From the IMG/VR virus record IMGVR_UViG_3300047273_000056, positions 1-24,557 of that record: DNA of 24,557 nt. One strand, given 5' to 3'. This document shows, piece after piece, positions 2,260-24,557 of the stretch; positions within the stretch are counted from its first letter, which is position 1, and each line of letters begins with the position of its first letter. The DNA comes from a virus. The position numbers were made by a program, and so were the translations under genes. The notes beneath the pieces are model-generated. The model had not been told where the DNA came from. It ran no database searches and saw only the letters and a program-made list of their open reading frames with translations.

Positions 2260-3834
2260 GTGGCTCCCACTGAGACCGAACTGCTTGAGCTTTCCAAGAT
2301 ACACGGCCCGGAAAAGCTAGCGGAACTCCTTCAGCTCAGAGAAGATAAGATCCTTGCTGAAAAACTAGACCCCTATAGACACGGCTACGAGCCTTTTCAT
2401 TGGAAGGACGCTGATAAATTGCTTGAAACAAGCACAGAAGTGCTTGTTATGGGCGGCAACCGAGCCGGAAAGACAGAGTGGGCCGCAAAACGCATAGTAC
2501 AGTTACTCTGTTCAAAGCCTGATGCTAGAGTCTGGTGTCTTCACACGACAGATAAGTCCTCGATCCAGATGCAGCAGAACATTATTTATAAGTATCTGCC
2601 TGCCGAGTACAAGAACGCCAAGAAATCTAAGATTACTAATGTTCAGTACAGCCAAAAGAACGGTTTCTCTGATGGATCGTTTGTTCTTCCCAACAGATCT
2701 CAGTGCTTCTTCATGAATTATGCTCAGAAGCGCGATGTGATTGAGGGCGGTGAGGTCGATATGGTGTGGTGCGATGAACTAGTGCCTTTGGACTGGCTGG
2801 AAACCCTTAGGTATCGTGTTATTACCCGCCGTGGTAAGATGATTGTTACCTTTACCCCTATTACAGGGTTCTCCCAGGTCGTTAAGAACTACATTTCCGG
2901 CTCTAGGATCATTGAAACCAGAGAAGCAAAGCTTCTCCCTAAGGACGAAATACATGTTACAGGCTGCAGGCCCGGACATATGCCTTATATCGGAACTGCT
3001 AGAACAAATAATGCTGGAATAATCTTTTTTCATTCGGTTTTTAATCCATACAACCCATATGACCAACTTGCCCAAGCGTTGTCTGGCAAAAACAAATACG
3101 AGGTTAAGATTAGAGCCTATGGATGGGCCGAGTCTCTTGCGGGTGCTCAATTCCCTAGGTTCGGAGAGGCGCACATTATCAAAAGTGACACTATACCCAG
3201 GGAAGGGACCAATTATATGGTCTGCGACCCAGCAGGGTCGAGAAACTGGTTCATGCTCTGGTACAGAATAGACAAGAATGACAACCGCTATATATATCGT
3301 GAATGGCCCGACCAAAGTGTTGGCGAATGGGCCTTACCCAGTGAAAAAGCCGATGGAAAAGCCGGATCCGCCCAACGCAATGGGGCCGGAATGGGTATTG
3401 CAGAAATCCAAGAACTAATAAAGGACTTGGAAGGCGAAGAAGAGATTGTAGAGCGATATATTGACCCTAGAGCTGGTGCAACCAAGGCAGCTGCCCTTGA
3501 GGGAGGCATATCTATCGTTGAACTGCTTTCTAGCGGAGAAACCGGACTAGACTTCCTTCCTTCCTCAGGAATTAACATTGATCAAGGCGTTGCAATCGTC
3601 AATGACTGGCTTTTCTACGACCAATCTCAGCCTGTAACCTATTTGAATCAGCCCAAGCTGTTTGTGTCTGAACAGTGCGAAAATCTTATCTATTGCATGA
3701 AGGAATGGACAGGCCAAGACGGAGATAAGGGTGCTACTAAGGACCCTATCGATTGTCTACGCTATCTTGCAGTAATGGACCCTATCTACATTAATGAACA
3801 AACCTTTAAGCCTAGAGGCGGACATTCATATTAA
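2260..3834 (+). CDS. terL: Terminase large subunit (DNA packaging ATPase-nuclease)
   Basis: This 524-residue protein pumps phage DNA into the prohead through the portal and cuts concatemers. The ATPase half has a Walker A at residues 65-72 (GGNRAGKT) and a Walker B at 167-173 (DMVWCDE, with the catalytic Glu at 173). The VTFTP segment at 196-200 suits the coupling motif. The nuclease half has the expected acidic positions: Asp323 (VCDPAG), Asp402 (YIDPRAG) and Asp495/Asp498 (DPIDCLRYL). The length is normal for the family. The start is uncertain: GTG 2260 is the first standard start after the in-frame TAA at 2221, and no ATG lies in the first 60 residues. The final 41 bases overlap the ATG of the HTH gene. 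Confidence 0.95.
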   Translation: MAPTETELLELSKIHGPEKLAELLQLREDKILAEKLDPYRHGYEPFHWKDADKLLETSTEVLVMGGNRAGKTEWAAKRIVQLLCSKPDARVWCLHTTDKSSIQMQQNIIYKYLPAEYKNAKKSKITNVQYSQKNGFSDGSFVLPNRSQCFFMNYAQKRDVIEGGEVDMVWCDELVPLDWLETLRYRVITRRGKMIVTFTPITGFSQVVKNYISGSRIIETREAKLLPKDEIHVTGCRPGHMPYIGTARTNNAGIIFFHSVFNPYNPYDQLAQALSGKNKYEVKIRAYGWAESLAGAQFPRFGEAHIIKSDTIPREGTNYMVCDPAGSRNWFMLWYRIDKNDNRYIYREWPDQSVGEWALPSEKADGKAGSAQRNGAGMGIAEIQELIKDLEGEEEIVERYIDPRAGATKAAALEGGISIVELLSSGETGLDFLPSSGINIDQGVAIVNDWLFYDQSQPVTYLNQPKLFVSEQCENLIYCMKEWTGQDGDKGATKDPIDCLRYLAVMDPIYINEQTFKPRGGHSY

Positions 3835-4021
3835 CATCGAAGGAGTTCCCCTGCTCCTTTCGAGATCAGAAGCGTGGCGTTTCTGCGGCCTAGACGAGAA
3901 CTACCTCGATAGGCTAAGGCGATCCGGAGATCTTAAAACATATAAGACCAAAGGAGGCCACAACAGATTTTTCAGGGATGACCTTATAAACCATATAATC
4001 AAAAATGCTAAACGACTATAA
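3794..4021 (+). CDS. MerR/excisionase-like winged helix-turn-helix protein
   Basis: This 75-residue protein is almost entirely one DNA-binding domain. Helix 1 lies at about residues 23-30 (SRSEAWRF), the recognition helix at 35-44, and a wing at 47-61 with the typical KTKGGHNRFF pattern (compare TPGGHRRF in MerR and excisionases). A last helix lies at 62-70. Known relatives include excisionases, MerR regulators and the DNA-binding domain of lambda gpNu1, a small terminase. It may therefore be a packaging-site recognition factor or a regulator. ATG 3794 overlaps TerL by 41 bases. A non-ATG start closer to 3834 is possible, because the conserved part begins only near residue 18. It overlaps the portal gene by 17 bases, so its expression is tied to both. 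Confidence 0.75.
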   Translation: MNKPLSLEADIHINIEGVPLLLSRSEAWRFCGLDENYLDRLRRSGDLKTYKTKGGHNRFFRDDLINHIIKNAKRL

Positions 4022-6176
4022 AGACAAGCGCGACAAGCTAGCCATCAATGATGGTAAGCCTGACATCAAGCTTTTGCAGCACGAACTGCAAAGATCGCTC
4101 TATAATGGGGCCAACATTGCCAAGCTCAATGCCAATGACGATATGCGTCTTTGTCGATGGGAAGGCCAAACTGAAGACGGCAAGAAGCACAGCGACTATC
4201 GCCAGGACCAAGATCCTGCTATGCCGTTTGAAGGTGCTTCTGATGTCCGTGTCCGTCTTGCCGATAAGCTTATCAATGAGCTTGTAGCCGTTAAGATGGC
4301 TGCTTGGAGCAAGTCCAGAAGAAAGGTTAATGGAATCACCCTTGAGGATGCAGCTATGGCTGCTGCCGCCACAACGCTCATGTCTTGGATTCTTGATAAC
4401 AAGATTGGCATGGAAGTGCGCCGGGAAGCTCATCTTCTTGCTCAATATGCTGAACAGTACGGATGGTCTGTCATGCATGTGGGCTGGGACCAGCAAATTG
4501 GTAAGAGACCGGAGACAATCACGATGGAGCAGCTTGCGGAAATCCAAGCTACAGCAGAACAGACAGATCCCAACACTGTTCTTAGAGACTTTTGTCAGAA
4601 CATAATGGAGCCGTCAAAGGATGACTTTAACTCTAATATTATTCTTAGCGTTGTTCCTATTGATGACACACAGGTCAGAAAGATGCTTAAGGACCTCCGT
4701 GAAAACGGAACGGCTACTGTTTTCTTTGACTCTATCGTCAGAAACCTTCCTACCATTACGGCCTTAAAGCCGTTTGATGAAATTGCCTTCCCCCCGGAAA
4801 CTATCGAGCTGGAAAAAGCCAGAATCATCTTTAGACGAGTTTTCATGACCGAAGTAGAGGTCAGATCCATGATTGAAACGGATGGCTGGGATAAAGAGTT
4901 TGTTGAAGAAGTGATTCAAACCAGCGGTAGCCATACATGGTATAATGACCCTAACATTGTTCCTGCAGCCGCCCTGTTGACTAACCAGCAGTACAGAGGC
5001 AACAACCTGATCGAAATTGTCTACTCTTATGCCAAGCAGATTGGTGAAGACGGCAAACCCTGCATTTTCTACACTATCTTTAATCCGTTCATTCGCAGCG
5101 ACAGTTGTGCTAAGCACGAAAGACTTGCTTATTCGCATGGTGCTTATCCTTTCGTCTCCTACAGAAGAGAACACATCCGAAAGATCTTTTGTGAGTCTAG
5201 AGGAGTACCGGAGATTGTTATTACTGACCAGTATGAAATTAAGGCTCAGCATGATGCCCTGAGAGACCGAACTGCCTTTGAAACGCTTCCTCCCATCAAG
5301 GTTAAGAAGCGCAACGGCTATGTTGGCTCTATCGGTCCAGGCATGCAGTTGCCTGTGTCTACTCCTGATGACTATCAGTTCCTTGAGCCGCCAAGAGGTA
5401 ATCCTCAGCTAGCTTTTAACTTGATCGAGACAGTTAAGCACAACTGTGCCGAGTATTTTGGTCTACAGCACCCTCAGATCCAGCCGGAACGCACCGCTAT
5501 GATGCAACAGGTCATGATTGATAACTGGCTGTCCGTCTGGGCAAGAATTTATCAGCAGATTTTCCAGCTTTCTCTGCAGTACATGGACGCTGCCGAAATT
5601 GAGAGAGTCACTAACTTTGAGCTCTCTAAGAAGTCTTCCGACATCGCTGGTCAGTTTGATTTTGCGGTTTCGTTTGATGTTAATGAACTTAACCCGGCCT
5701 GGGTGAGCGAAAAGCTCAGCGCGATCACGCAGTTTGTCATTCCTCTTGATAGCGGTGGCATCATCGACAGAAATAAGCTTATCATGAAGATTTGTGAGTC
5801 TATCTCTCCTGACATTGCTAAGGAAATCGTTATTGAGCAGGCTACAGCCACTCAGAGAATGGAAAAGGAAGTTAAGACTGACCTTGCCATCATGATGCTT
5901 GGTATGGAGCCTCAGTATGTTGAAAATGACCCTGCGGCAGAAGCCAAGATGCAGATCATGCAGCAAGTCATGCAAAGCAATCCTAAGGCCGCTCAGGCCG
6001 CTCAGATGGACCAAACATTTAGTCTTATCTTCCAGAACTACACAAAGAACCTTCAGATGTCCGTTGAACAGCAGAAGAACAAGCAGATTGGAAGACAAGG
6101 CGTGTCTCCTGTTGGTCCTGAGCTGCAGCAGCAAACTCAGGTAGTTAACGGACAGATGCCTCAGATGCCTCAATGA
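4005..6176 (+). CDS. Portal protein
   Basis: This 723-residue protein is called the portal from its size, its place directly after TerL and before scaffold and capsid genes, and its general pattern. It has an N-terminal mixed region with MPFEGASDVRVRLADKLINEL near residue 75, a long central part with the FPPE segment, many aromatic and charged residues, then helices (stem and crown) and a Gln/Met-rich C-terminal tail from about residue 640. The dodecameric portal ring is the DNA entry and exit channel, nucleates assembly and binds TerL. It has the size class of P22-like podovirus portals. Start ATG 4005 lies inside the HTH gene (17-base overlap), and TGA 6174-6176 overlaps the next ATG (ATGA). 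Confidence 0.85.
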   Translation: MLNDYKDKRDKLAINDGKPDIKLLQHELQRSLYNGANIAKLNANDDMRLCRWEGQTEDGKKHSDYRQDQDPAMPFEGASDVRVRLADKLINELVAVKMAAWSKSRRKVNGITLEDAAMAAAATTLMSWILDNKIGMEVRREAHLLAQYAEQYGWSVMHVGWDQQIGKRPETITMEQLAEIQATAEQTDPNTVLRDFCQNIMEPSKDDFNSNIILSVVPIDDTQVRKMLKDLRENGTATVFFDSIVRNLPTITALKPFDEIAFPPETIELEKARIIFRRVFMTEVEVRSMIETDGWDKEFVEEVIQTSGSHTWYNDPNIVPAAALLTNQQYRGNNLIEIVYSYAKQIGEDGKPCIFYTIFNPFIRSDSCAKHERLAYSHGAYPFVSYRREHIRKIFCESRGVPEIVITDQYEIKAQHDALRDRTAFETLPPIKVKKRNGYVGSIGPGMQLPVSTPDDYQFLEPPRGNPQLAFNLIETVKHNCAEYFGLQHPQIQPERTAMMQQVMIDNWLSVWARIYQQIFQLSLQYMDAAEIERVTNFELSKKSSDIAGQFDFAVSFDVNELNPAWVSEKLSAITQFVIPLDSGGIIDRNKLIMKICESISPDIAKEIVIEQATATQRMEKEVKTDLAIMMLGMEPQYVENDPAAEAKMQIMQQVMQSNPKAAQAAQMDQTFSLIFQNYTKNLQMSVEQQKNKQIGRQGVSPVGPELQQQTQVVNGQMPQMPQ

Positions 6177-6550: not shown

Positions 6551-7534
6551 ATGTCCAATACAGAACAGTCGAATAGTGGTTACGACTCTAAAAAGTCCAC
6601 GAATGAGGCAGTCGGGCCTCTTACAACAGAATCTCTAGCAGAAATGCTCAGAGGAGATCTTGCAGCCGACCCGCAAGATACGACCACCGCTGAGGACGAG
6701 AACAATACAGCGGAAGCCCATGAAGATGCTAGCTCTCCGGAGGAATCCGAAGCAGTAGCCGAAGATGGCGAAGAAGTTCCTTCACAGACTGAAGAACACA
6801 ACGAAGACCAAGCGGAAAACCTACCAAAGGGTTTTAAGAAGCGCATTGATAAGCTGACTGCCAAGCGAAAGCAGGCTGAAGCTGAAATTGAGCGACTTAA
6901 GGCTGAGTTGGAAGAAGCTAATAACAGAACGACAGAAGTGCCGGTTCCTGTTGTTAGAACGGACAACCCTTACTCCCATCTCGATTCTCCTGACAAAATC
7001 AGGAACGAAATGGATAAGGCCAGGAAGGTTAGATATTGGGCCGAAGAAAACTCTGATGGTTGCACCGTAACCAATCCAGACGGATCTGAGTCCGAATATT
7101 CCGCAAGACAGGTAAAGGAAATCAAGCTTAATGCCCTGAAAGCCTTAGATGAGCATCTGCCAAAGCAGGCTGCTTTTATCACAGAAAAGGTAAAGATGGA
7201 CACCTACGCCGAGAGCGAGTACTCTTGGTGGAAGAAAAAGGAAGCCAGAGAACGAGTGATAGCCGATAAGTTTATCAGTGCGTTCCCTGAGATTACCAAG
7301 TTCCCTGACTATAAGGTCGTAGTTGGTGATTATATTGCAGGATTTACCAGCCGGGAAGCCAAGCTCAAGGCAAACACCGCTGGTTCAGTTAATAGAGCAC
7401 CTGTAGTTCCCAAGTCTTCATATGCTCCGGCCACTCAATCGCAAAGAGATACTAGTGCGAAAGAGTCCAAGCAGCGGTTCATGCAAACTACACGATCCGA
7501 GGACCTTGCAGATTATCTCAAATCTATCCTCTAA
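6551..7534 (+). CDS. Capsid scaffolding / assembly protein
   Basis: This 327-residue protein has the layout of a scaffold, placed immediately before the capsid gene. Residues 1-95 are strongly acidic and disordered-looking (many Glu, Asp, Ser, Thr). Residues about 96-130 are a charged heptad-type coiled coil (KRIDKLTAKRKQAEAEIERL). The middle is helical with a tryptophan-rich part (YSWWKKKEARER), and the C-terminus is basic, then amphipathic (DLADYLKSIL). Scaffolds line the inside of the prohead, bind the capsid protein through a C-terminal helix and leave before DNA fills the head. No protease signature is seen in it. The gene is first after the promoter at 6456-6485 and has no Shine-Dalgarno sequence. 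The call rests on composition and position. Confidence 0.75.
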   Translation: MSNTEQSNSGYDSKKSTNEAVGPLTTESLAEMLRGDLAADPQDTTTAEDENNTAEAHEDASSPEESEAVAEDGEEVPSQTEEHNEDQAENLPKGFKKRIDKLTAKRKQAEAEIERLKAELEEANNRTTEVPVPVVRTDNPYSHLDSPDKIRNEMDKARKVRYWAEENSDGCTVTNPDGSESEYSARQVKEIKLNALKALDEHLPKQAAFITEKVKMDTYAESEYSWWKKKEARERVIADKFISAFPEITKFPDYKVVVGDYIAGFTSREAKLKANTAGSVNRAPVVPKSSYAPATQSQRDTSAKESKQRFMQTTRSEDLADYLKSIL

Positions 7535-7560
7535 CCCCCCTATACAGAAAATATACTACT

Positions 7561-8616
7561 ATGGCCCTTCTTACAGAAAGAAACATCGTCAGCGGCAAGC
7601 GTGAAGACCTTGCTGACCTGATCTCCCTTGTTGACGCAAAGGAAACCCCCTTCACCTCCATGGCGAAGAAGGGTTCCAAACCCGGCAACACTCACTTCCG
7701 CTGGCAGGTCGATTCCCTTCCGTCTCCCCAGACTGGTGGTGTCATCGATGGCACGGATGTGTCTGCCTATGACAATTATGTCAACAACGGCGGCACTCAG
7801 TACAGAGCTGAGCTGTCGAACAACATCCAGATCTTCCGCAGAGCTGTCAGAGTTTCCAAGCTCTCGCTCGACATCGCTAATGTTGCTGGTGTCCGTGACG
7901 AGCTTGCTAACAATGTCGCTAAGGGCATCACGATGCTTAAGCGCGACATGGAAAAGACCTTCTGCGGTAACTCCGGTGTTCAGGACGAAACTGGTTCCGT
8001 TCCTTACCTCACCAGAGGTCTCGACAAGTGGCTGACGCATTCTGGTGCTACCAATCAGGCCAGCGTTTCGGCTGATGGTCACGACACCCTCTACGCCGTC
8101 CCTGCTGCTTGGAGACTCCCAGATGCTTCCAGACTTACTGGATCTATCGCTTCTGGTGCTCTTACCGAAACATCGATTCAGGATGTCTTGACCTCGATGT
8201 TCAACCAGACTGGTCAGTTCCGTGATGTCGATGGTCTTGTCGGTACTGCTGTCAAGCGTGCCTTCACGAACCTGGCCTTCACGACCAAGGTTGAAACAGG
8301 TGCTACTAACTCCTCCGCTGCCTCCGTTGTCCGCACTCTTAACAGAGAGCAGGGCGAATCCTCTTACATCTCGTCTATCGATGTGTTTGAAGGCGATTTC
8401 GGCAGAGTCCGTCTGCATCCTTCCGTGTTCCTGCTTTCGGAAAACAAGGGTTACCTGATTCCCTTTGACAAGGTTGAAATCAAGTACGGCGGTAATGTCG
8501 CTCAGGTGACAGAACTTCCGGACTATGGTGCTGGTCCCGCTCGCCTTATCGAGGCTGTGGCTGCTCTTGCGGTCCACAACCCCCTCGCTTTCGGTAAGCT
8601 TGATCTGTCGGCTTAA
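7561..8616 (+). CDS. Major capsid protein, SU10/DUF5309-like HK97 fold
   Basis: This 351-residue protein forms the icosahedral shell. Its N-terminal pattern (KREDLADLISLVDAKETPF, then a GKxHFRWQVD-type strand, then VIDGTDV) and its middle (RAVRVSKLSLDIANVAG, LKRDMEKTFCGN) match the SU10 capsid family as I know it, with the long spine-helix segment around residues 100-145. The length is usual. Codon choice is shifted toward C-ending codons (CTC, GTC, TCC, CGC) compared with the T-ending neighbours, as expected for the most abundant virion protein. It is 26 bases after the scaffold gene. That leader (CCCCCCTATACAGAAAATAT) has no Shine-Dalgarno sequence but is A-rich. The stop at 8614-8616 is directly followed by the next start. 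Confidence 0.9.
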   Translation: MALLTERNIVSGKREDLADLISLVDAKETPFTSMAKKGSKPGNTHFRWQVDSLPSPQTGGVIDGTDVSAYDNYVNNGGTQYRAELSNNIQIFRRAVRVSKLSLDIANVAGVRDELANNVAKGITMLKRDMEKTFCGNSGVQDETGSVPYLTRGLDKWLTHSGATNQASVSADGHDTLYAVPAAWRLPDASRLTGSIASGALTETSIQDVLTSMFNQTGQFRDVDGLVGTAVKRAFTNLAFTTKVETGATNSSAASVVRTLNREQGESSYISSIDVFEGDFGRVRLHPSVFLLSENKGYLIPFDKVEIKYGGNVAQVTELPDYGAGPARLIEAVAALAVHNPLAFGKLDLSA

Positions 8617-9749: not shown

Positions 9750-9750
9750 C

Positions 9751-10874: not shown

Positions 10875-10876
10875 CA

Positions 10877-11062
10877 ATGACTACTGCTCCTAAAAAACTC
10901 CCAAAGGGTTGGGTTGCCTTTGTTCAAGGCACTAAAGCCCAACTGATTTCCGAACTCAAGAAGGACGGAAAATACTACGGACAACTGACCCTTATCTCCA
11001 AGCCCACCGAAGCCGAACTGAAGGCTGAACTCAAGCGTCTCAAAATCTCTCTCCCTGCCTAA
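10877..11062 (+). CDS. Small hypothetical protein, 61 aa
   Basis: This 61-residue basic protein has a short strand part (GWVAFVQG), then two helices (TKAQLISELKKDGKYYG and PTEAELKAELKRLKI). It could be a small chaperone of the preceding repeat protein or of the tail fibre, but nothing proves it. ATG 10877 is two bases after the previous stop. The next micro-gene starts one base after its stop. Confidence 0.65.
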   Translation: MTTAPKKLPKGWVAFVQGTKAQLISELKKDGKYYGQLTLISKPTEAELKAELKRLKISLPA

Positions 11063-11063
11063 T

Positions 11064-11171
11064 ATGCTTACCCTAATTCTGATCTCCATCTCGCTCCTTG
11101 GCGGTATCTATGTCGGCGCTCGCTACTCCGGCAAACTCCTTGCCATCTGGCACTCCATCACAGGTAAGTAA
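11064..11171 (+). CDS. Single-span membrane micro-protein, 35 aa
   Basis: The gene encodes 35 residues. An N-terminal hydrophobic segment, MLTLILISISLLGGIYVGA (residues 1-19), is long enough to cross a membrane and is followed by a short basic, aromatic tail (RYSGKLLAIWHSITGK). ATG 11064 is one base after the preceding stop, and the TAA at 11169-11171 overlaps the ATG of the nozzle gene as TAATG, so both ends fit the coupling pattern here. A holin-like or membrane-anchoring role is possible, but a lysis gene alone in the middle of a tail module would be unusual, and no endolysin is visible nearby. Confidence 0.6.
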   Translation: MLTLILISISLLGGIYVGARYSGKLLAIWHSITGK

Positions 11172-12817
11172 TGCCAGCTAGAGAGTATCTAGTCGATGGT
11201 GACCAGGGGTTCATCGGCTTGAACTCAAGGGACAATCCGTTGAATTTGGGCAAGAACTATGTTTCTAAATCCCAGAATTTCCGGATGGATCGTGGTATAG
11301 CAATACTACGCAAAGGTACTAAGCGTCTTACTGATGCTGGTTTAGCTGCCCTAGGGAACATCTATGGTGCTTGTTCTTACACTAAATCAGATGGCACTGA
11401 AAGGATGATCCTTGTATTTTCAGACAGAATAGCTGTCTACAATCAGGAAACGCAGGCAATAGAAAACACTGTTACCTTTCCGGCTGGAGAGACAATAATT
11501 GCGTCTGACGATGTTGATGTGTATCAGGCTCAAGGAATTGGCTATGTCTATATTTGCCGGGGATTTTCCAAGTCTGTTTTAAGATGGAATGGGGTTAACA
11601 CTGCAGGATCAGTTGTTACACCTGGGGTAGGAACCCATCATAACTATCCACCTACACGGCAGGCTGTTTATTACGGCAACCGTCACATTGTTCAAACAGA
11701 TGGAAATAGCTTTAGCGTAAGTCACTACCTAGATGACAATGCCTGGTCTGCTCTTGATATGTTTAATATCAATGATGGATCCAGCGACAGGTTAATTGCC
11801 ATAACTCCATGGACCCTTAACGAGTTTGTGATCTTTATGCGTAACAGCGTCTTCTATTGCGCTGTTGGCGTAGGAGCCGAGCTAGATGGTCAAGCGGCCC
11901 AGGAGTCCAATTCTTATGTAAAGTCGCTTGCTAGCGATATTGGATGCATTGCCAGGGGGTCTGCCATCCAAGCTGCAGGAGGGATTCTATTCCTTTCGGA
12001 TAATGGCATCTATATGCTTAATCCTGCCGGAGCCGCTCAGGGTGGGGTAAATACCCCTGAAGGGATGAGACTTCTTGCTTTGGCTGAGCCGATCTCAGCT
12101 CCAATAAACGATGTCATTGCTAGAGTAAATTATAACTATGTAGACAAGGCTACGGCAATTTACTGGGAAAACAGATACTACATAGCTGTTCCTCTTGATT
12201 CTAGCACTAAAAATAACGCCGTATTGGTGTATAATTTTGTTAACAAAGCATGGGAATCCGTTGATGTTTACCCGGAAAACTTTGACATTAAACAGTTTAT
12301 TGTAGCAAAGCGTGGAAGCAAAAGACGCTTGTTTGCGATAGATGGCGAAGAGGGCGTGTTTTTGTTAGAAGAAAACAACTGGGATGAGTACGGCGGTGCT
12401 ACAGGTCTTCCTCGCCTTCCGGGGGCAGGACAGGTTGACACTTTTGTGTTAAACACTGCTTCAGCTATCCTTCAAGCATCTGAATTCCAAGCTAACCAGA
12501 TCCAAGGTCAGTTAATAACTAGAGCATACTCTTTTGACACAAACAAAGAAAAGCGTTTCTCTGGTATTCAAACAGATATTTTTGCCCCAGGTGGCGGCAT
12601 TGTATATGCGTCTGTACTAACAAGTAATCCTGACATTGAAAGCGAACTTATTCGATATGGTATAAACGCAGATGAAGACACGATCCTTAGGCTTCCTGTT
12701 AGAAAATGTGGTCAATACCTTCAGGCTAAGTATGTTACAACTAACTCAAGACCCCAAATTCATTCAATAACAACCAGCGCAATTGTCGTTGGATATAACC
12801 ATAAATCTCAAAAATAA
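11171..12817 (+). CDS. Tail nozzle / stabilisation protein (beta-propeller type)
   Basis: This 548-residue protein is beta-rich throughout, with repeated strand pairs and turns (YSYTKSDGTERMILVFSD, YVYICRGFSK, GGILFLSDNGIYML, KRRLFAIDGEEGVFLLEE). The N-terminus (GFIGLNSRDNPLNLGKNYV, then SQNFRMDRGIAILRKG) is the opening typical of phage nozzle and P22 gp10-like proteins. In podoviruses this protein forms the ring below the adaptor and extends the DNA channel. Its size is normal. It sits between small decoration genes and the tail fibre, an order that supports the call. ATG 11171 and the stop are both fused to neighbours through TAATG, at 11169-11173 and 12815-12819. Confidence 0.75.
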   Translation: MPAREYLVDGDQGFIGLNSRDNPLNLGKNYVSKSQNFRMDRGIAILRKGTKRLTDAGLAALGNIYGACSYTKSDGTERMILVFSDRIAVYNQETQAIENTVTFPAGETIIASDDVDVYQAQGIGYVYICRGFSKSVLRWNGVNTAGSVVTPGVGTHHNYPPTRQAVYYGNRHIVQTDGNSFSVSHYLDDNAWSALDMFNINDGSSDRLIAITPWTLNEFVIFMRNSVFYCAVGVGAELDGQAAQESNSYVKSLASDIGCIARGSAIQAAGGILFLSDNGIYMLNPAGAAQGGVNTPEGMRLLALAEPISAPINDVIARVNYNYVDKATAIYWENRYYIAVPLDSSTKNNAVLVYNFVNKAWESVDVYPENFDIKQFIVAKRGSKRRLFAIDGEEGVFLLEENNWDEYGGATGLPRLPGAGQVDTFVLNTASAILQASEFQANQIQGQLITRAYSFDTNKEKRFSGIQTDIFAPGGGIVYASVLTSNPDIESELIRYGINADEDTILRLPVRKCGQYLQAKYVTTNSRPQIHSITTSAIVVGYNHKSQK

Positions 12818-15081: not shown

Positions 15082-17201
15082 TGGCTACACCACAAGGCAA
15101 CCCAGGTGGCGGCATGTTTGCCAAATACACTTCTGAACAAATCAATCAGATCCCGGCTGGCTATGTTGAGGCCATGGGATCCATGGGCAAAGCCTATGCC
15201 CAGATTGGCGCAACGCTAGGTCAAGCCTTTCAAGGCATGGCTGGTGAGTACCAGAAGCAGGACCTCCAGAAGTCACAGGCCCAGGGCCTGCTTGACTCTT
15301 ACACTGGTGGAGATGTTGAGTCTGCTATGTATAGGGATGACACCCCTAGCCATGTTAAGTCTTTCCTAGACAGATCGTTTACGGCAGGCGGAGTAAGCAA
15401 CATGAGTCAGCGCGACATCAACGCTTTCATGGCTGGTGAGCAGGCTTACAACACTCAGTTTGATAGGCAGCTCAAACTTCGCCAGATGACTAATGAAGAA
15501 AGCAAAGCTACTACTGCTGCAGCCAATGCTGCTGATCCTGTAGAAAAACTTACAAAGAGATTCGACCTTGGTGCAAAGTTAAACACTCAGATTAGTCCGT
15601 CTGTAAGAACTGATGTAATTGCTGGAGTACCTGATGCCCCTGCTCTCTTTAACAAAAATGTTCAAGCTTCAGCGGCAGAAGCCAGCAAGAACGCTACAAA
15701 AGCTGGACAGCCAAAGGTAGACGCACTAAGAAATGCCTATAACCTTGCTAGGCAGGATCTAGACAGGACATCGGAAAACCCTGTTGACCTCAATTCTATC
15801 ACAGATATATCTGGGTATGAAACTGAAGTAACAAGAAATGAGAAAGAGGTAGCTGCTGCCTCGCAAAGAGCTTCTACAACTCTTGCTGCGTTTGACCTTG
15901 CTAAAGACGAACAAACAAAAGCTGGATCCTTTGCAGCCCTTGAAGCAATTAAGTCCGGTTACAGTAATCCTGCACTTCTTGAACAGACTAAAGACCAAAG
16001 AAGACAAATTATTCTTGATGGCATTAGGGACAAGAAAGCTTCATTAAGAGAAACAGTAGCACAACAGCTTGGTCCTGAAGTTGCTTCAGGCATTAATATT
16101 TCAAAGGATGACGAAGAGTTTGCTGCAAAGCTTGCTGCTGAGATTCCAGATGGCACTGTTATTAACTCCGGAGAAGGCTATTCCTGGGTCTACCAAGGCG
16201 GCAAAGCTGTGTTCAAGACTGCCAAGCAGATGGGCGTTAGTGACACTGCTGGCGTTGTTCTTCCTCCTAACATTCAATTGGATTATGGTAAGATGTTTGG
16301 CGGCATGTCTCAAGAAGAATTTAACAAGCTTTCTCCTAATACACAGAAGTTTATCTCTACAGAAGCAAAAAAGTATCAGGATCAAGTTAACGCATCTTAT
16401 GATGCAATTCTTAAGCAGGGCCAGATTTCCGGGTCAACACTTACCCCTGCAAAGTTCTTTGGATGGAAGGGCATGATCGACAATAAAACAGAACTTCGAT
16501 ATGTCATTAACCTTACGACTGCTAGAAAGTCTTTAGAGTACGGCATTGATCAAGTTATTGCTGCTTATGAAAAATATGGCGTGAGCAGAGCTTGGAGCCC
16601 GGAAGCTAGAGCTGTCTTTAACGCTACAAAGCCTACTCTTATTGCATCAGTAAGACCAATGGTCGCTGGTGGTAATCAGCAGTCTGACACGGAATTGCGT
16701 ACAATCCTTTCCGCCTTACCTATGGGATCTGATATCACTTCCTTAGCGGCCTTTGATATTGCACAGTACAGGTTCATGAAAATCATGTTTGCTAAAAACT
16801 ATGAGAATCACATGAGTTCTGTTCCTGGCCTTGAAAAAGTAGGCACAGGGTCTGCTCTTGATTACAGCGGATTGCCTGATCGAACTAAAACATTGATTAA
16901 CGAATTTTATGCTGGTTCCGGAAATTTTGCTGGTCTTGATGGATTAGGTAAAATGAAACATCTACAAGCTGTTCTTGCTGCTGCTAATGATAAAGGAGAT
17001 CCATATCTTGATGCCTCAAGAGGATCTGTTTTGATTAAAACTATTAACGAAGCTCCTTTTCGTGCTGACAATGTTAATATCTATCTCAGAAACGAACAAG
17101 GAAAGCTTACCGCTGACGAGCTTACTGAAGCAGCTAGACTTAACCCCGCATTTAAAGATTACAGAACCCTTGAAGGCGTTCTTACTACTGAACCTAAATA
17201 A
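15081..17201 (+). CDS. Internal virion (ejection-type) protein, 706 aa
   Basis: This large helical protein has an N-terminal Gly/Ala/Gln/Met-rich part (residues about 12-75, containing KAYAQIGATLGQAFQGMAGEYQ) resembling that of its neighbour. Long charged helical regions follow, with Ser/Asn-rich turns. I see no enzyme motif; in particular there is no lysozyme or transglycosylase catalytic pattern I can point to. By order (fibre, small ejection protein, this, giant protein) it corresponds to the middle ejection proteins of T7-like or P22-like phages. Both ends are coupled: the ATG at 15081 overlaps the preceding TAA, and its own TAA at 17199-17201 overlaps the ATG of the giant gene. Confidence 0.7.
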   Translation: MATPQGNPGGGMFAKYTSEQINQIPAGYVEAMGSMGKAYAQIGATLGQAFQGMAGEYQKQDLQKSQAQGLLDSYTGGDVESAMYRDDTPSHVKSFLDRSFTAGGVSNMSQRDINAFMAGEQAYNTQFDRQLKLRQMTNEESKATTAAANAADPVEKLTKRFDLGAKLNTQISPSVRTDVIAGVPDAPALFNKNVQASAAEASKNATKAGQPKVDALRNAYNLARQDLDRTSENPVDLNSITDISGYETEVTRNEKEVAAASQRASTTLAAFDLAKDEQTKAGSFAALEAIKSGYSNPALLEQTKDQRRQIILDGIRDKKASLRETVAQQLGPEVASGINISKDDEEFAAKLAAEIPDGTVINSGEGYSWVYQGGKAVFKTAKQMGVSDTAGVVLPPNIQLDYGKMFGGMSQEEFNKLSPNTQKFISTEAKKYQDQVNASYDAILKQGQISGSTLTPAKFFGWKGMIDNKTELRYVINLTTARKSLEYGIDQVIAAYEKYGVSRAWSPEARAVFNATKPTLIASVRPMVAGGNQQSDTELRTILSALPMGSDITSLAAFDIAQYRFMKIMFAKNYENHMSSVPGLEKVGTGSALDYSGLPDRTKTLINEFYAGSGNFAGLDGLGKMKHLQAVLAAANDKGDPYLDASRGSVLIKTINEAPFRADNVNIYLRNEQGKLTADELTEAARLNPAFKDYRTLEGVLTTEPK

Positions 17202-20200
17202 TGGATTCCGATCCCTCTCAAACAACTAAACCCCTACAAAAGCCCCTGGAATTACCCAGGGACTTTGCTTTGTCAGAAGCTGAGCAGTACGCCAAAAAGG
17301 TTGCTGCCGGAGAGATTAAGCCAAGCAAAGAAGACCTAAGAGGTTTTCTCCCCCAGAAAAATCTTTACGGTGGTGCTGGTGGATCAACTCGCGCTTCTGA
17401 GGCCAAAGGTGACGCTACTGATAAAGCAAAAAAAGAGATCGACAAAGACAAGCTTACTTTATCTGCGTTAGTTCCTAGGGAGCCAAAAGAAACAGCGTTG
17501 ATAGAAAATAGGGGTTATGAAGCTGCCGTAAAACAGCAAGGCGATGACCTTGCCATGGCTAGTGCTGCTCTTGTAGCTACCATTAACACGGACTCAATGT
17601 TCTTCCGTGGCATGAAACTGCACCAGAAGATCTTGGCTGGAGAAAGACCTTTTGAAATAGAAAAAGAATCCGGGCTGCTTACAGAAAAGGCAAAGATGGA
17701 TGTGGCTGATTATGAGTATTTCTACGACCACCCAAACAGACAGATTACCTTGCTACATGGTGCTGCTGAAGTTTTAGGCATGGTAGGCAGCGAGGTTGGA
17801 CACACATTTCAACACCTTATTGGAGACGGAACCCCGATTCTTAATCCTTATTATAAGGACAAGCCTAATTGGGTAGAACTTCAAGAGGAAGCCAAATCTT
17901 TCGTCATGCAGGGCGTTACCCTAAAAATTGGGGTAGACGAGCTTAAGGCCGGAAGAGCCAGCAAAGACAATGCTATAGCCGTTGCAGAAATGTCAGGGCG
18001 TGAAGTAAGAGAAGTGCATGCTGAACGATCCAGATACATTGAACTGTACAAGCGTTATGTAAATCCGCCTGAAGTTAAAGGTAAGGACGGAAAGGTGTTT
18101 AGAGCACAACCTTTGTTCCGTGATCCTTCTTTCTGGGAAAGTGCAGGTAACAAAACTATGGGCTCAGTTGAGGCTGGAACTAGAGTGCTTAAGGGTTGGT
18201 ATAACCTAGCGGCTGACGCTAGCAAAGATCCTTTATCTTGGCATGGTGCTGCTGATGACAAGCTTAGACACCTGGCGCTTGAGCATGAATATCAATTTGT
18301 TAAGGACGATCCTAGTAAACAGGATGAAGCAAGAAAACTGCTAGCTCAGATAAAAGATTCTAAGAGCATTCGTGCAGCCAGAATTAACACTGCTGCCGAT
18401 GATATTGCCTCAATGAACAAGTGGGCTTCCGGAGAGTATATGGTTTGGGCTCCTCACAAAGGAAGTTCATTTGAAGTAGATCCTGCCCATAGCCCCGGCA
18501 TTATGCCAGATCCCAACATCTGGAGCCCAGGACAAACATGGATGGATCCCATGATGATTTACGGACTTGGCTCTGGTGCTTTTCGGGCCATGAAAGCCGC
18601 CTCTGCCGCAGAAGCATCAATGCTTTCTAGATATGCTGCTATTGCTAAACTAGCTTCCGTTGAGTCTTTTGCTCTTGATGTAGCTACTATTGCTAAGGGC
18701 CTTGCTGGCATGGACGATTTTATGAAGGCTACTGGCCTTGAGGCTGCTGCGGATGCTGGTATGGACGCAACTAAACTTAGCCAAGAGCAACTTATTGAAA
18801 TGGGTCTTCGTAGGATTTTGGAAAATCCAATGGCCCTTGATCCTTCCAAGTTCACAACAAAGCTTATTGATGATGTCTTAAACTCTTTCCCTAAGCCTGC
18901 AGCCGTTGCAATGACTGAAGAACAGTGGCAACTTCTTTCTGGAACTGATAAACTTAGAAACCTTGATCCTCCAGCTTCTTTTGCTGGAGTTCCTGAAGGC
19001 CCTCAAGTGTGGGCAAGTATGAGCGTTGAACAACGCATGCAAGTTATCATGGGCGAAAAGACCTCTGAGGTCTATAAGCTTGCCAGACAAAGACAGGTAG
19101 CAGCAATGGCCTCTGCCCAGGCAGATGCGTCAAGAGCTGCAGCCGAAACAGCTGACACAAACAGCAATGCTGGCGTTGTCAGAAGAACTGCAGGTAAGTT
19201 CACATCTATTTTTGGCGAGTGGGTCTTGGGCGGTAGAGAGCTTGGAAGAGGTTTCTGGAGAGACCTTTCGCTTGCCGGATTGCTTAATGGCAGTGCTGAT
19301 ATTGTAGAGGGTGCTCTTCGTGGAAGCGTGTCCGCCACACTTGGAAAAGGTGCAGGCCAGAAGGTTGAAGAATTCCTCAGGGATCAATCCCAAGCTAGAT
19401 TTGTCTTCAGAGCAAAGGTTGCATTTGGGGCTGCATTGGGCATCAACCTAGCAGACACTATTTTTGCTGATAACCAAACATGGCTTAAGTACCCTAAGTA
19501 CATGATTAATGTCCTTGGCTTTGTTGCTGGCGCAAGAGTGCTTGGATACAACAGTCAATCTATCGGCAAGTTTGTGAAGGTCTGGGGCGATGAAATTGCC
19601 AGAGGTGACCCTACGCTTTGGCGTGGCTATGCTGCTAAGATTGCTAAAAACCCGGAAGCCTATGGATTTGATCCTACGGAAGTAATGGGTCCTAAGGGTA
19701 TTGCTAACTTTGTTGCTAACTTTGGCATAGAAGGCGGACTCCGTTTTGGCAAGCGAGCCCTATATGACTTTGGTGTCAAGGGCGGCGGCGTTGCTGAGCT
19801 TATGGTTTACGGTAAAGACCGAGACTCTAAAGGCCAGGGCCTTGCCATTGGAACTGTTTTCTCTGCTGTAGGTTATTACATGGCTCTTGGTGTTAACAAG
19901 GGCCTTGGTCGAACAAGACTCAACGCCATGAGAAGTGATGCCTTTAATAGAATGGGCATGACCATGGAAGGTGATCCTACCAACATGATGATGTTTATCA
20001 AGGCTCACGACACCGCCCTTAAAGCAGGTTTTGAAGAAGACTTCCTTGGGTTTGTTCTTGGCGTTGATAACTCCACCAAGGCAAAGATTCGATTCATTGA
20101 CGGCAAGTCCGCTAACATGCTTCGTTTTGCCTATGACTATGGTATGGTTAATCAGTCTGAAAGCATCCGCAAGATGGTTGCCCTTGGTTTTAGAACTCCG

Positions 20201-23200
20201 GAAGATATCATTGGCGCAAAGCTCAAGCAGGAAGAATTTGCCAAGATTGCTACGGAACTTCGCAACAAGATGACAGAAGAGTCTAGAGTGTTGACTCTTG
20301 ATTTTGAGGCACAGCGAGATGTTGCCAGACAGCTTACCGATAGGCTTAAGGATCCAAGACTTACCACTGAGGAGAAGATGGACATTGGTACACAAAAGAT
20401 GATGGTCCAGGCAAAGATCAAACAACTTCAGATCAGAAAAAATGAGATTGCTCAGTCTCTTAAGATTGGAGACAACCTTACATTTATCAGAGCGAATGGA
20501 ATTGACCCTGCCACAGTCAACGCAAGGGTTAGAGCAGGCGTTAATGAAATCACCGGAAACCCGCTGATCACATTTAAGGGCCTTACGATTGAAACAACAA
20601 AGGACGGCCCTATTGTCTACATGAATGTCGATAGGCTTACGACAAAAGCTATGTGGCATGAAGCTGCTGAAGCCGTGTTGCTTGCTGGTGGCATTGAAAC
20701 AGTAGTCAAAGACGCTACTATAAAGCTGTTCGGCAACATGGGTAAGAACCCAGGCACGATGAAAGAAAACAAGCGTGTTGTTGATGAGGCCCTTAAGGCC
20801 GGAAAAGCTGTTGATACATATGAGTTTTTCACAACAGAACTAGTTCACCAGGCAACAAAGGATGGCGTTCTTAATCCGGCATTAATTGCCGACATGATCA
20901 GAGCACACGCTAAAAGCGCAAACCTTGATGGAGCGTGGGAAGCAAATGCGTTTTCTGCTGTCCGTGAGTATCTTACAACAGGAGATCAAACCGCTATCTC
21001 TTCTCTTACTAGAGAAATCTTTGCCAACTATGTTGGTCTTCACCTAGAACAGACAACTACACTTGCTGGAACCCCCAACAAGCTTGCTTTGTTTGAAAAT
21101 GGTTCATGGGGTATGACGCTTTATGGGTTCTCAGAAAGAATCCTAAACACAATGAGGGGAGACACTTCCCTTGCTTTGGAAGGGCATTCCCAGCTTTCAG
21201 CTAATGCTTCTGCTGCTCCCGGAACTCAGACTGGAATTAGAAGCTTCTTTACAGATCCTGCTACAGGAAAAAGAATTACAATTACGGCCCTTGAACGACT
21301 CTCTAGAGAGGCTATTAAGAGATCCGGAAAGGGAGGCCTTGACGCAGAAGGCAGAGCTTTAGTTGACCTACGCAAGCTTAAACCTGAAGAAAGAAGAGCC
21401 TGGGTCACTGCTAATAATGTTTCTCATTGGGTAGACGAATCTGGCAACCTGCGTGACCCTAAGGAAATTGTACGCATCGAGGCTGGAATGATGAACCAGT
21501 CTATCGTGGAGCTTGAGCGTGTTCGCTCAGACAATCCTAATATTGTCCGTGGCGTTAAGAGGGTTGAAAAGAATAAGAACGGAGAGACGCATACGATCAC
21601 CGGAAACCTTAGCGCACCTGAGATTATGGTGATGCTTAATAACCCTGATGTTCCTGAGAACATTAAGAAGACCCTGCTTGCCTATAGCAAAGCTGTCTTT
21701 AGATCTGATGGTCAGATTGGCCTTATCCAAGGCATGTATTCCGGAGAGTCTAAGGAAACAGTTTATACTCCTCAGTCCACGCCTAGTCTTAGAGAATGGG
21801 GTAGCCCATTGCTTGCTCCTGAGCATAGAGCACTGCTCCCGCTTTCGCTTACTGTCGCATGGGAAACCGACAATGCAGGGGCTATTATTGCAGCAAGGGT
21901 CAATGTCAACGGACTTGACTGGAAGAAGGGCATTGAGCCTAGAGTTCGTATTGCCGCTGGCAGCGACCTCGCTAAGGCCAATAACCTTACGATGTCTGAA
22001 CTGTATGGTTACATGCAGGACTACATTACAAACCTTAACAAGGGTACAAACAATAAGCTTGGTACAGAGAACGCGATCCCTTCTGCTGAGTTGTTTGACC
22101 CTACCGGAAACAATCCGACAAGAGGTGAGAACATTAGAGACCTCATGCATTTCATCTTTGACTTCCAAAAGAAGAAGGGTGACGCATACATTAACCAGCC
22201 AGCAGATTGGGGTGAACTTGGCCTAAGAGGTCCTACGCATCCTTACACAACCTTTAGTGCTAATCGCTGGACCGGAGCTGAAGCGGACGCTGATGGCAGA
22301 TTTATTAGAGTCAATGATGCTGCCTACAAGCTAAGCCAAGGCAATTTCATGGGCGCTGCTGATGACAATGTGCCGCCTAGGAAGCTTAACAGGGCAGATG
22401 TCGGAGAACAGTCAGCAGAAGCTGAAGCGGAAGCAGTACGCAGAGCCGGAGGCCCTGAAACGACTATTGATCCTCCAATTGAAAAGGGGAAAGTTGTAGA
22501 TCCCACCAGTTCTATTGAGTCTAACCCTGCTATTGCTCTAGAGCAGATTAGCGATGTTTACTCGTTGGAAGGTAAGGCTATCCCAAAGGTGATAATGAAT
22601 TGGATTAAAGCTTACGAGGGAGATCTTATCAACAGACCTCCTAAAACAACTGAGGAGTATGTCAGAAGACTGTATGAAATTGCTTACGAAAAATCTAATC
22701 GTTCTGTAGGTCCAACTTTTAGAAAGTCAGAAAAGGAAAGGGCTCAGTATGCATTGCCAGTTCTAAGCGAGTTGTATGAAAACGTTAAAGCATTGGCAAA
22801 TAAAAAGAGAGATCAAGTTGACGCTGAAAAGCGTGGCATTGTACAGGCTAACGCAGAGGCCACTAATGCTGAAGCGTTAGCTATTGAAGCAGCAAGGGAT
22901 GTTAATACTAACGCAGCTAGACAGGGTGACGCTGCTAAGAATGTTCCGACACCTATGTCTAACGCTGCTAGAAAAGATCTGGAAATGGCTAACGACCAGA
23001 TTTCTATGTGGAGAGAAATTGTTGACCAAGGCCTTAAGGATGAAGCCGGAGGCGTTGAGGTCAGCTTGTCTGCTGCAGAGCTTCCCTATAACCAGAAGCA
23101 GCTGAGAAAGTACCTCGACCTAGCTTATTCTATTAAGGAAAACTTTGATCCCGGTTTTGATGTAGCCACCTATTTCCCTGACTACAAGAAGCCAGACCTA

Positions 23201-24557
23201 CGACAGGATGTGCAAGCTGCCATCAATGCTGAAGCTGCTGCGGTGCGCCAGGTTGAGGTAGCCAATACTCCTACAGGCCAGGCCAACATGCCCCTGGTCA
23301 CTCAGTTTAAAGACAAGGCTACAGATGCCCTTACAAGGCTTGCTGTTATGAGACTTCCGGGATCTAAAGACATCCCTGAAATTATCAGCACCTTGACAAC
23401 AAGGAGCAACAGCATCGCTAAGAATGTTACTTCCCTTCTTAATGTGCTAGAGGGCGGCAAAGGAACTGTCGATTATGTCTATGCTGCTGATGCGGCTGCA
23501 GGATACTCTAAGTCTATTGACTTGATGATCCAAGCTCAGAACAAGGCAGAAGCTGCCGCTCTTAAGGCTGGCAATAAAGACAAGGCTAAGCTTGCCGTTG
23601 ATGTCCGCACTCAGCTTGAGGTGCTTAAGAACACAGTAGACGGCATTCAGGAGTATGCCCAGGACCTTGCAGATACTGCTCCGGCAAGACAGGTTGCTGC
23701 TTCTGGCATTGATCTTAATGATCCTAAGGTTGTCGAATGGAGAAAGAAAAACGGCGTTACTAATAACAAGGATGGTGATTGGATTGAACAACCCTCCAAG
23801 GAAGTCATGAAATTAATTGATGGCCCTTTTGAGCATCTTGCTCAAAGCATTGATTCTGCAAAGATTGATGGCTATGGTCCTGAGGCCTATCAGGATGAAG
23901 CAAACGCAGCAAGGGCTGCTTTAAAGAAAGCTATGGACAAAGGACTCACTGCTAAGGAGTTCTATGCATTATACGACCTGGGCAAGGGCTCTAATAGAAC
24001 AGCCCTACTTAAGGAGATCGAACCTGTAATTGGAAAAGCTTTCCCTAAAGAAGGCCTTTCTAATGTTCTTGTTCCGGTAGAAGATACAATTAAGAATTTT
24101 GGAGGCAGCAAGCCTAAGCCTAAGAAGCCTGTAGCTGAAACAACAGAGCCTGCTGCTACTGCCGAAGCTGCACCGGCTCCTACTACTGAAGCTACAACCT
24201 CATGGCAAAATAGAACTGATGGAGAAGGAAGAAAGTTGGGCGTAAGCACTGCCGACAAAGATGGGTTAATTACTTTTCGCACAAAGGGAGAAGGAACTGT
24301 TCATGTGGTTGCGCGAGCCATATACAATGCTGATGGATCCATATATACATATTTGGAGATTGGTACAGCAAAGACTCTTGAGAAAGCTCAAGCTATTTAC
24401 GCTAAATCATTAAAGGACGGCCCTCTTCCTACTGCCGGATCTGCAGCTAGGCAGGCTGATGCCCCTGAGACTACTCCTACAGGCAAACCTAAGTTGGATG
24501 AAAAGGCAATAATTAAGAAGCTTAGAGAGTTTGCTAAAGAGTTTGATAATATAGAAG
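17201..24557 (+). CDS. Giant virion-type protein, at least 2452 residues, incomplete at window end
   Basis: One frame stays open for 7357 bases from ATG 17201, fused to the previous stop (TAATG), to the window edge; I read all of it and found no stop. The N-terminal 100 residues are polar. Helical regions follow, with hydrophobic stretches near 738-756 (KVAFGAALGINLADTIFA), 768-787 and 881-900 that could touch or cross a membrane. A zincin-like segment has HEAAE at 1153-1157 after a YMNVDRLTTKAMW strand/helix, and EIFANY at 1272-1277. Long coiled-coil-like Ala/Glu/Arg/Lys parts lie at about 1860-2100. A Pro/Ala/Thr/Lys linker (about 2304-2330) precedes a small domain. No RNA polymerase motif was seen. 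A large polyvalent, head-stored ejected protein is the likeliest role; function is unproven. Confidence 0.85.
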   Translation, partial: MDSDPSQTTKPLQKPLELPRDFALSEAEQYAKKVAAGEIKPSKEDLRGFLPQKNLYGGAGGSTRASEAKGDATDKAKKEIDKDKLTLSALVPREPKETALIENRGYEAAVKQQGDDLAMASAALVATINTDSMFFRGMKLHQKILAGERPFEIEKESGLLTEKAKMDVADYEYFYDHPNRQITLLHGAAEVLGMVGSEVGHTFQHLIGDGTPILNPYYKDKPNWVELQEEAKSFVMQGVTLKIGVDELKAGRASKDNAIAVAEMSGREVREVHAERSRYIELYKRYVNPPEVKGKDGKVFRAQPLFRDPSFWESAGNKTMGSVEAGTRVLKGWYNLAADASKDPLSWHGAADDKLRHLALEHEYQFVKDDPSKQDEARKLLAQIKDSKSIRAARINTAADDIASMNKWASGEYMVWAPHKGSSFEVDPAHSPGIMPDPNIWSPGQTWMDPMMIYGLGSGAFRAMKAASAAEASMLSRYAAIAKLASVESFALDVATIAKGLAGMDDFMKATGLEAAADAGMDATKLSQEQLIEMGLRRILENPMALDPSKFTTKLIDDVLNSFPKPAAVAMTEEQWQLLSGTDKLRNLDPPASFAGVPEGPQVWASMSVEQRMQVIMGEKTSEVYKLARQRQVAAMASAQADASRAAAETADTNSNAGVVRRTAGKFTSIFGEWVLGGRELGRGFWRDLSLAGLLNGSADIVEGALRGSVSATLGKGAGQKVEEFLRDQSQARFVFRAKVAFGAALGINLADTIFADNQTWLKYPKYMINVLGFVAGARVLGYNSQSIGKFVKVWGDEIARGDPTLWRGYAAKIAKNPEAYGFDPTEVMGPKGIANFVANFGIEGGLRFGKRALYDFGVKGGGVAELMVYGKDRDSKGQGLAIGTVFSAVGYYMALGVNKGLGRTRLNAMRSDAFNRMGMTMEGDPTNMMMFIKAHDTALKAGFEEDFLGFVLGVDNSTKAKIRFIDGKSANMLRFAYDYGMVNQSESIRKMVALGFRTPEDIIGAKLKQEEFAKIATELRNKMTEESRVLTLDFEAQRDVARQLTDRLKDPRLTTEEKMDIGTQKMMVQAKIKQLQIRKNEIAQSLKIGDNLTFIRANGIDPATVNARVRAGVNEITGNPLITFKGLTIETTKDGPIVYMNVDRLTTKAMWHEAAEAVLLAGGIETVVKDATIKLFGNMGKNPGTMKENKRVVDEALKAGKAVDTYEFFTTELVHQATKDGVLNPALIADMIRAHAKSANLDGAWEANAFSAVREYLTTGDQTAISSLTREIFANYVGLHLEQTTTLAGTPNKLALFENGSWGMTLYGFSERILNTMRGDTSLALEGHSQLSANASAAPGTQTGIRSFFTDPATGKRITITALERLSREAIKRSGKGGLDAEGRALVDLRKLKPEERRAWVTANNVSHWVDESGNLRDPKEIVRIEAGMMNQSIVELERVRSDNPNIVRGVKRVEKNKNGETHTITGNLSAPEIMVMLNNPDVPENIKKTLLAYSKAVFRSDGQIGLIQGMYSGESKETVYTPQSTPSLREWGSPLLAPEHRALLPLSLTVAWETDNAGAIIAARVNVNGLDWKKGIEPRVRIAAGSDLAKANNLTMSELYGYMQDYITNLNKGTNNKLGTENAIPSAELFDPTGNNPTRGENIRDLMHFIFDFQKKKGDAYINQPADWGELGLRGPTHPYTTFSANRWTGAEADADGRFIRVNDAAYKLSQGNFMGAADDNVPPRKLNRADVGEQSAEAEAEAVRRAGGPETTIDPPIEKGKVVDPTSSIESNPAIALEQISDVYSLEGKAIPKVIMNWIKAYEGDLINRPPKTTEEYVRRLYEIAYEKSNRSVGPTFRKSEKERAQYALPVLSELYENVKALANKKRDQVDAEKRGIVQANAEATNAEALAIEAARDVNTNAARQGDAAKNVPTPMSNAARKDLEMANDQISMWREIVDQGLKDEAGGVEVSLSAAELPYNQKQLRKYLDLAYSIKENFDPGFDVATYFPDYKKPDLRQDVQAAINAEAAAVRQVEVANTPTGQANMPLVTQFKDKATDALTRLAVMRLPGSKDIPEIISTLTTRSNSIAKNVTSLLNVLEGGKGTVDYVYAADAAAGYSKSIDLMIQAQNKAEAAALKAGNKDKAKLAVDVRTQLEVLKNTVDGIQEYAQDLADTAPARQVAASGIDLNDPKVVEWRKKNGVTNNKDGDWIEQPSKEVMKLIDGPFEHLAQSIDSAKIDGYGPEAYQDEANAARAALKKAMDKGLTAKEFYALYDLGKGSNRTALLKEIEPVIGKAFPKEGLSNVLVPVEDTIKNFGGSKPKPKKPVAETTEPAATAEAAPAPTTEATTSWQNRTDGEGRKLGVSTADKDGLITFRTKGEGTVHVVARAIYNADGSIYTYLEIGTAKTLEKAQAIYAKSLKDGPLPTAGSAARQADAPETTPTGKPKLDEKAIIKKLREFAKEFDNIE

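Follow-up and report, generated by a model that had tools for sequence, protein, structure and literature searches.

Short-tailed phages of the LUZ24/P22 lineage carry the genes of their internal virion proteins to the right of the tube genes (PMC10386132). In P22, the ejection proteins gp7, gp20, and gp16, of 229 to 609 aa each, are encoded after the portal, scaffold, coat, and hub genes, and in LUZ24 (Bruynoghevirus) the late block includes gp50, a protein of 1,055 aa annotated as a "virion structural protein" or "phage particle protein." The late block of N4 (Schitoviridae) encodes a 3,500-aa ejected giant, the virion RNA polymerase (vRNAP) gp50, beside a 644-aa ejection protein. For the N4 giant, which has an HExxH domain in its C-terminal region, expulsion in beads-on-a-string form, following smaller channel proteins, has been proposed (PMC12633501); encapsidation requires the C-terminal region (PMC5512222). 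Another group of very large, multipart proteins encoded beside virion genes is that of the polyvalent phage proteins, whose commonest part is a zincin-like (MPTase) domain (PMC5512222).

Here, we analyzed a 24,557-nt stretch of viral DNA (the window), which is the entire IMG/VR record IMGVR_UViG_3300047273_000056. A preliminary description, made from the letters of the DNA, had drawn attention to a giant open reading frame at its right end and had compared it with the N4 polymerase and with polyvalent proteins.

RESULTS

Structural module and lineage

The gene order of the window (Table 1) is collinear with that of LUZ24 and, more loosely, with that of P22. Because the terminase large subunit (TerL) and the major capsid protein (MCP) match those of LUZ24 by profile and the genes come in the same order, the window is assigned, on sequence grounds, to a LUZ24/P22-lineage (short-tailed) podophage. 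N4 is more distant: its portal matches that of the window, while no profile match was found between its MCP, TerL, and ejection genes and those of the window. The 548-aa open reading frame (ORF) belongs to a family of which other members match the PHROG of head-closure Hc3/P22 gp10-type hubs. Tail-fiber genes lie nearby in podophages, and the 385-aa ORF is tail-fiber-like by its position. In most relatives, an ORF of 620 to 850 aa stands in place of the 706-aa ORF.

TABLE 1 Features of the window and of its giant ORF
Feature	Position	Strand	Basis or remark
Terminase large subunit (TerL)	2260..3834	+	PF03237; PHROG match; LUZ24 gp66, hhalign 97.5%
Portal protein	4005..6176	+	Similar to annotated portal; N4 portal, hhalign 92.6%
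Scaffolding protein	6551..7534	+	phrog_8865, 8.8e-5
Major capsid protein (MCP), SU10_MCP	7561..8616	+	PF17236, 7.5e-46; LUZ24 gp62, hhalign 99.8%
Tail hub/nozzle protein, 548 aa	11171..12817	+	Relatives match Hc3 phrog_578 and virion structural phrog_3287
Tail-fiber-like ORF, 385 aa	12817..13974	+	By position; G029 homologue matches PHROGs of unknown function (phrog_2295)
Candidate ejection protein, 367 aa	13978..15081	+	Homologous in 20 records
Candidate second ejection protein, 706 aa	15081..17201	+	Overlaps giant start (TAATG)
Giant ORF, 2,452 codons	17201..24557 (codons to 24556)	+	ATG start; cut by contig end
Tentative N-terminal motif counterpart, residues 322-348 (SVEAGTRVLKGWYNLAADASKDPLSWH)	18164..18245	+	Motif order; hhalign 0.8%
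Gly-rich/hydrophobic stretch, residues ~854-900	19760..19900	+	Possible counterpart of family Gly-rich segment
Family core (zincin-like plus following domain), residues 1125-1720	20573..22360	+	hhalign
HEAAE, residues 1153-1157	20657..20671	+	Aligned with HExxH of G006 and G016b
E1272, position of zincin third ligand, helix TREIFANY	21014..21016	+	Invariant, 22/22

Two other ORFs of the window deserve mention. A 404-aa antisense ORF (7540-8754, minus strand) spans the whole MCP gene; ORFs of similar length lie opposite the MCP gene in the closest relative found, IMGVR_UViG_3300021963_000686 (L002), where the ORF has 405 aa, and seemingly in G004, G019, and G025. The window's antisense ORF is probably a shadow ORF of codon usage. 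The 395-aa ORF before TerL (752-1939) gave weak matches near residues 235 to 318, to transcription regulators as well as to a PHROG labeled "hemolysin" (6.4e-5); it possibly encodes a small-terminase or HTH-type protein.

The giant ORF is coding and is cut by the contig end

The ATG at 17201 opens a frame that runs stop-free to the last base of the window and takes up 7,357 of its 24,557 bases (30%), so that the length of over 2,450 codons and the share of the window given in the preliminary description both held. Since the chance of a stop-free run of 2,452 codons is about (61/64)^2452 = 1e-51 (our own arithmetic, for even base composition), the ORF is not random. The frame is kept in L002, where it is open for 2,604 codons and likewise runs to the contig edge; the two giants share about 50% amino acid identity across the full length of the window's giant, and in every 400-codon block dS was saturated or nearly so, with dN between 0.31 and 0.68. 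The giant ORF is real and protein coding. Its start codon overlaps the stop codon of the preceding 706-aa ORF, which suggests translational coupling of the two.

A terminal repeat was sought at the window ends and none was found; since the window is the whole record, has no such repeat, and holds no stop for this frame, the contig end truncates the gene. When the last 28 bases of the window were searched for exactly in IMG/VR, no extension of the contig was found. After the residue aligned with R1646 of the window, complete relatives have 1,468 to 2,916 residues versus 806 in the window, so that approximately 660 to 2,100 codons are probably missing and the full length is probably 3,100 to 4,550 aa or roughly so. 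The window ORF would then be the 5' two-thirds or so of the complete gene, which we consider fairly probable, a grade that applies to the whole reading of the protein given in Discussion.

A family of giants across IMG/VR

A search with the MCP yielded 80 loci of the same broad lineage, and the relatives fetched were records of about 37 to 47 kb, plus one of 88 kb. In these relatives, too, a giant ORF closes the structural block. BLAST joined 18 giants from 17 records; all but one are complete, with lengths of 2,501 to 4,317 aa. In the 17 complete cases the giant comes after TerL, portal, scaffold, MCP, hub, and two or three mid-size ORFs, and its share of the record is between about one-fifth and one-third. 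Homologous giants were found in at least 33 IMG/VR records, a number counted from result tables that comprises the BLAST-linked records, the window, L002, and further search matches and leaves out G005.

Searches of Pfam, PHROG, NCBIfam, and PDB sequences gave no match that explains any part of the giants, the few library matches being weak, of low complexity, or to families of unknown function; the earlier impression that much of the protein resembles no nameable family is thus borne out. tblastn found no match for the window's giant among cultured phages and none for a 1,448-aa fragment of a relative among cultured phages and plasmids. Two scans of genome contigs, each with only two short peptide patterns, found no prophage relatives, and a literature search that covered few subscription papers found no description of such proteins. 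As judged from these comparisons, the giants are a previously unnamed family of proteins of 2,500 to 4,300 residues that resemble no known polymerase or catalogued protein.

Several individual records stood out. The 88-kb record G016 (IMGVR_UViG_3300010970_000150; L141-L145) contains two full structural modules, each with a giant of its own (3,511 and 2,586 aa), and, close to its end, a third pair of TerL and portal genes; it is probably two phage genomes of about 44 kb joined in assembly. The giant of G005 (L127; 2,625 aa) matches the zincin-like region weakly at residues 1287 to 1372 (hhalign 13.7%, E 0.002), has EELNH in place of HExxH, and bears near its C-terminus a stretch resembling the C-terminal domain of the family, of which it is probably a distant member by these resemblances. 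The G032 giant (2,020 aa), which carries HETVH, was considered as a member and does not match. In G029, two genes ahead of the giant, a 267-aa ORF (L090:11781-12581) matches PAPS-reductase PHROGs (1e-10), the matches being confined to short separate stretches, which leaves that function doubtful. The nearest named genome, phage C75C1 (L003, OQ984151.1), has a 2,769-aa ORF that lies behind the tail genes and crosses the origin (38751-7576), and a second large ORF of 1,343 aa (8707-12738); neither matched the giant family by profile (0.3%).

Layout of the giants

Sequence alignment gives the family one layout: the N-terminal part and the core are conserved, the middle varies greatly, and the C-terminus is formed by a conserved domain of about 85 aa. 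The N-terminal part comprises about 530 residues in most members and shows the motif EGxxxGTxNWxxM..Y(D/N)xxS and a conserved Gly-rich segment, HGxxYGGAFG...GGEEG...G.GTG. The N-terminal 1,100 residues of the window's giant are about 550 longer than those of most relatives and resemble the family in motif order only; the homology is not significant (hhalign probability 0.8%) and is claimed as tentative only. Alignments of the N-terminal part and of the middle are uncertain, and two of them placed the family Gly-rich segment differently on the window, so its counterpart in Table 1 is likewise tentative. The hydrophobic segments of the preliminary description were reduced to a single borderline one in the window (residues 880 to 898, mean hydropathy 1.53); a conserved transmembrane helix was sought by hydropathy in the family and not found, the Gly-rich stretch being conserved instead.

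It is through residues ~1120 to 1720 that the window's giant joins the family, this region being homologous to the core of the relatives (hhalign 98.4%, E 9e-15). With a model that includes the window the E values were 1e-75 and 4e-68, and a model built without the window and L002 still gave a match of 97.3% (E 2e-11). The conserved core begins with the zincin-like domain and continues after it to about residue 1720. The length of the middle that follows differs greatly between members. The C-terminal domain ends every complete member and lies beyond the reach of the window; in the complete gene it would be expected to take the form N.LGY.I....F+LFNP....A. A short unit of the window's giant (residues 2334 to 2404, 24200-24414; GLITFRTKG..VHVVARAIYNADGSI..TAKTLEKAQAIY) looks like this domain, and was rejected as such by a profile test (0.1%). 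Neither internal repeats nor a recognizable lytic transglycosylase or other ejection-protein enzyme turned up in the giant when sought.

The zincin-like domain

In most members the zincin-like domain lies near residues 570 to 600. Among 22 aligned giants, the Glu of the motif is present in all; the second His is kept by 20 of them and the first His by 4, so that most relatives have xExxH and only two (G006, with HELFH, and G016b) the full HExxH. In the window (HEAAE) and L002 (HEAGE) the second His is replaced by Glu. The window therefore does not have a canonical metallopeptidase site, while a Glu at the position of the third ligand is found on a following, predicted helix (E1272). An AF2 model of the window's core, of low confidence (mean pLDDT 63), shows a helix, two strands, the HEAAE helix, and the later E1272 helix. 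The zincin-like site of the preliminary description is accordingly upheld as a region whose homologues in two relatives have HExxH, and not as an HExxH site in the window itself. Judging from the motif, the window's domain probably does not function as a classical peptidase; in most members it is probably a structural or metal-binding scaffold, and a self-processing peptidase is possible only in members with an intact HExxH.

Comparison with known ejected and polyvalent proteins

No sequence similarity of the giant was found to LUZ24 gp50 or gp51, P22 gp16 or gp20, or N4 gp50, gp51, or gp52. LUZ24 gp50 nevertheless occupies the slot of the giants in a collinear late block and, like them, has a Gly-rich N-terminal segment; it differs in being 2.4 to 4 times shorter and in having no zincin-like domain, and it did not match significantly (hhalign 0.7%, with gp50 as a single sequence only). 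The P22 ejection proteins, with the place of their genes as the shared feature, gave no sequence match to the giants.

With N4, the window shares a giant that ends the late block and adjoins a mid-size gene for an ejection protein, a candidate one in the window. In contrast to N4 gp50, the giants have a different MCP beside them, a zincin-like domain much nearer the N-terminus, and no detectable polymerase, as the preliminary description had noted: hhalign against the vRNAPs of N4, LIT1, and DSS3phi2 gave 0.5% for the 17-member family and 0.2% for the window pair, whereas the positive controls gave 99.5% (N4-LIT1) and 100% (N4-DSS3phi2), and no single-subunit RNA polymerase domain was found in this comparison. 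Regular expressions for polymerase motifs were discarded, as the N4 positive control did not pass, and a PF00940 search was set aside because its control genomes gave no match.

Like polyvalent proteins, the giants are very large, multipart, encoded beside virion genes, and equipped with a zincin-like element. They differ in that the catalytic motif is lost in most of them, the window included, and in that no named polyvalent domain is present; two recognized domains of disparate activity were not found, the window protein having no Pfam, PHROG, or NCBIfam domain and those of relatives only weak or unnamed domain matches in these libraries. Overall, the reading in the preliminary description is upheld in part, and the closest known layout is that of LUZ24/P22, not N4. 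By position, the giant closes the head/tail/ejection block as its last large gene, as the preliminary description had it.

DISCUSSION

The best explanation of the giant, and one we consider fairly probable, is that it is the largest, enlarged internal-virion (ejection) protein of a LUZ24/P22-lineage podophage. This reading is favored because the slot is that of the internal virion proteins, occupied by the annotated particle protein gp50 in LUZ24 and by ejection proteins 7, 20, and 16 in P22, and, by analogy, because the ejected giant of N4 has a corresponding place and an HExxH domain. The TerL and MCP matches to LUZ24 and the recurrence of the giant in 33 records also favor it. A fixed N-terminal part and core, a variable middle, and a fixed C-terminus are also what would be expected of a cargo with packaging and exit ends. 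What speaks against it is that the searches found no sequence similarity to LUZ24 gp50 or gp51, P22 gp16 or gp20, or the N4 ejection proteins, no transmembrane helix conserved in the family, and no enzyme domain typical of ejection proteins. We infer packaging, ejection, and every step of action by analogy with the known systems. Synthesis of the giant would occur late and be coupled to that of the 706-aa protein encoded just before it. In the procapsid, the giant would be packaged close to the portal, probably alongside the products of the 367- and 706-aa ORFs, with the C-terminal domain of the family as the likely tag for packaging or docking. After adsorption, it would be driven out by way of the tail hub, either before the DNA or together with it, in the form of unfolded domains on a string. 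The N-terminal region with its Gly-rich segment may then help to complete an inner-membrane conduit, and the variable middle may act in or on the host envelope or in the cytoplasm, in the manner of polyvalent proteins.

A packaged polyvalent effector, acting on host targets only and having no role in a conduit, would fit the differences in the middle among members and the habit of polyvalent proteins of sitting beside late genes with a zincin-like domain as their commonest one (PMC5512222). We rate it as unlikely but conceivable, since no named polyvalent domain family was recognized, and the N-terminal part and core are too conserved, and the gene position too constant, for a mere accessory. 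That the protein is instead a giant tail fiber, spike, or adhesin appears improbable. Podophage tail-fiber genes lie in the neighborhood (PMC10386132), and adhesins are common among giant phage proteins, but the giant has no internal repeats, the domain libraries (Pfam, PHROGs, and NCBIfam) returned no fiber, lectin, or depolymerase, and a separate tail-fiber-like ORF exists; moreover, what is best conserved is the N-terminal part together with the zincin-like core and the very end of the C-terminus, and not an anchoring N-terminus followed by a variable tip.

A highly diverged N4-type virion RNA polymerase, its polymerase domain too divergent to be seen, is hardly credible despite the common size class, the same end of the late block, and an HExxH-type domain in both proteins. 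The profile comparison that readily joined the vRNAPs to one another left the giants apart, Pfam and PDB gave no polymerase match, and the zincin-like domain comes too early for the N4 order of NTD, RNAP, and zincin. A more novel reading would be that the region after the core (1,500 to 2,900 residues) contains one or more catalytic domains of an unrecognized kind, perhaps for transcription or other work on nucleic acids, whose action in the host would precede the expression of any phage gene. The giants would then be an independently evolved second kind of N4-sized ejected enzyme, a proposal that we rate as unlikely.

If the ejection-protein reading is true, a single ejected protein claims between about one-fifth and one-third of the genome in a short-tailed phage lineage that is widespread and has come to light chiefly in metagenomes. 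Giant virion proteins would then no longer be tied to a virion RNA polymerase, as these giants have no detectable polymerase, and the family would offer a second system in which to study the passage of chains longer than 3,500 residues through a narrow tail. In it, the N-terminal part with the core, and the C-terminal ~85 residues, are testable candidates for the packaging and exit signals.
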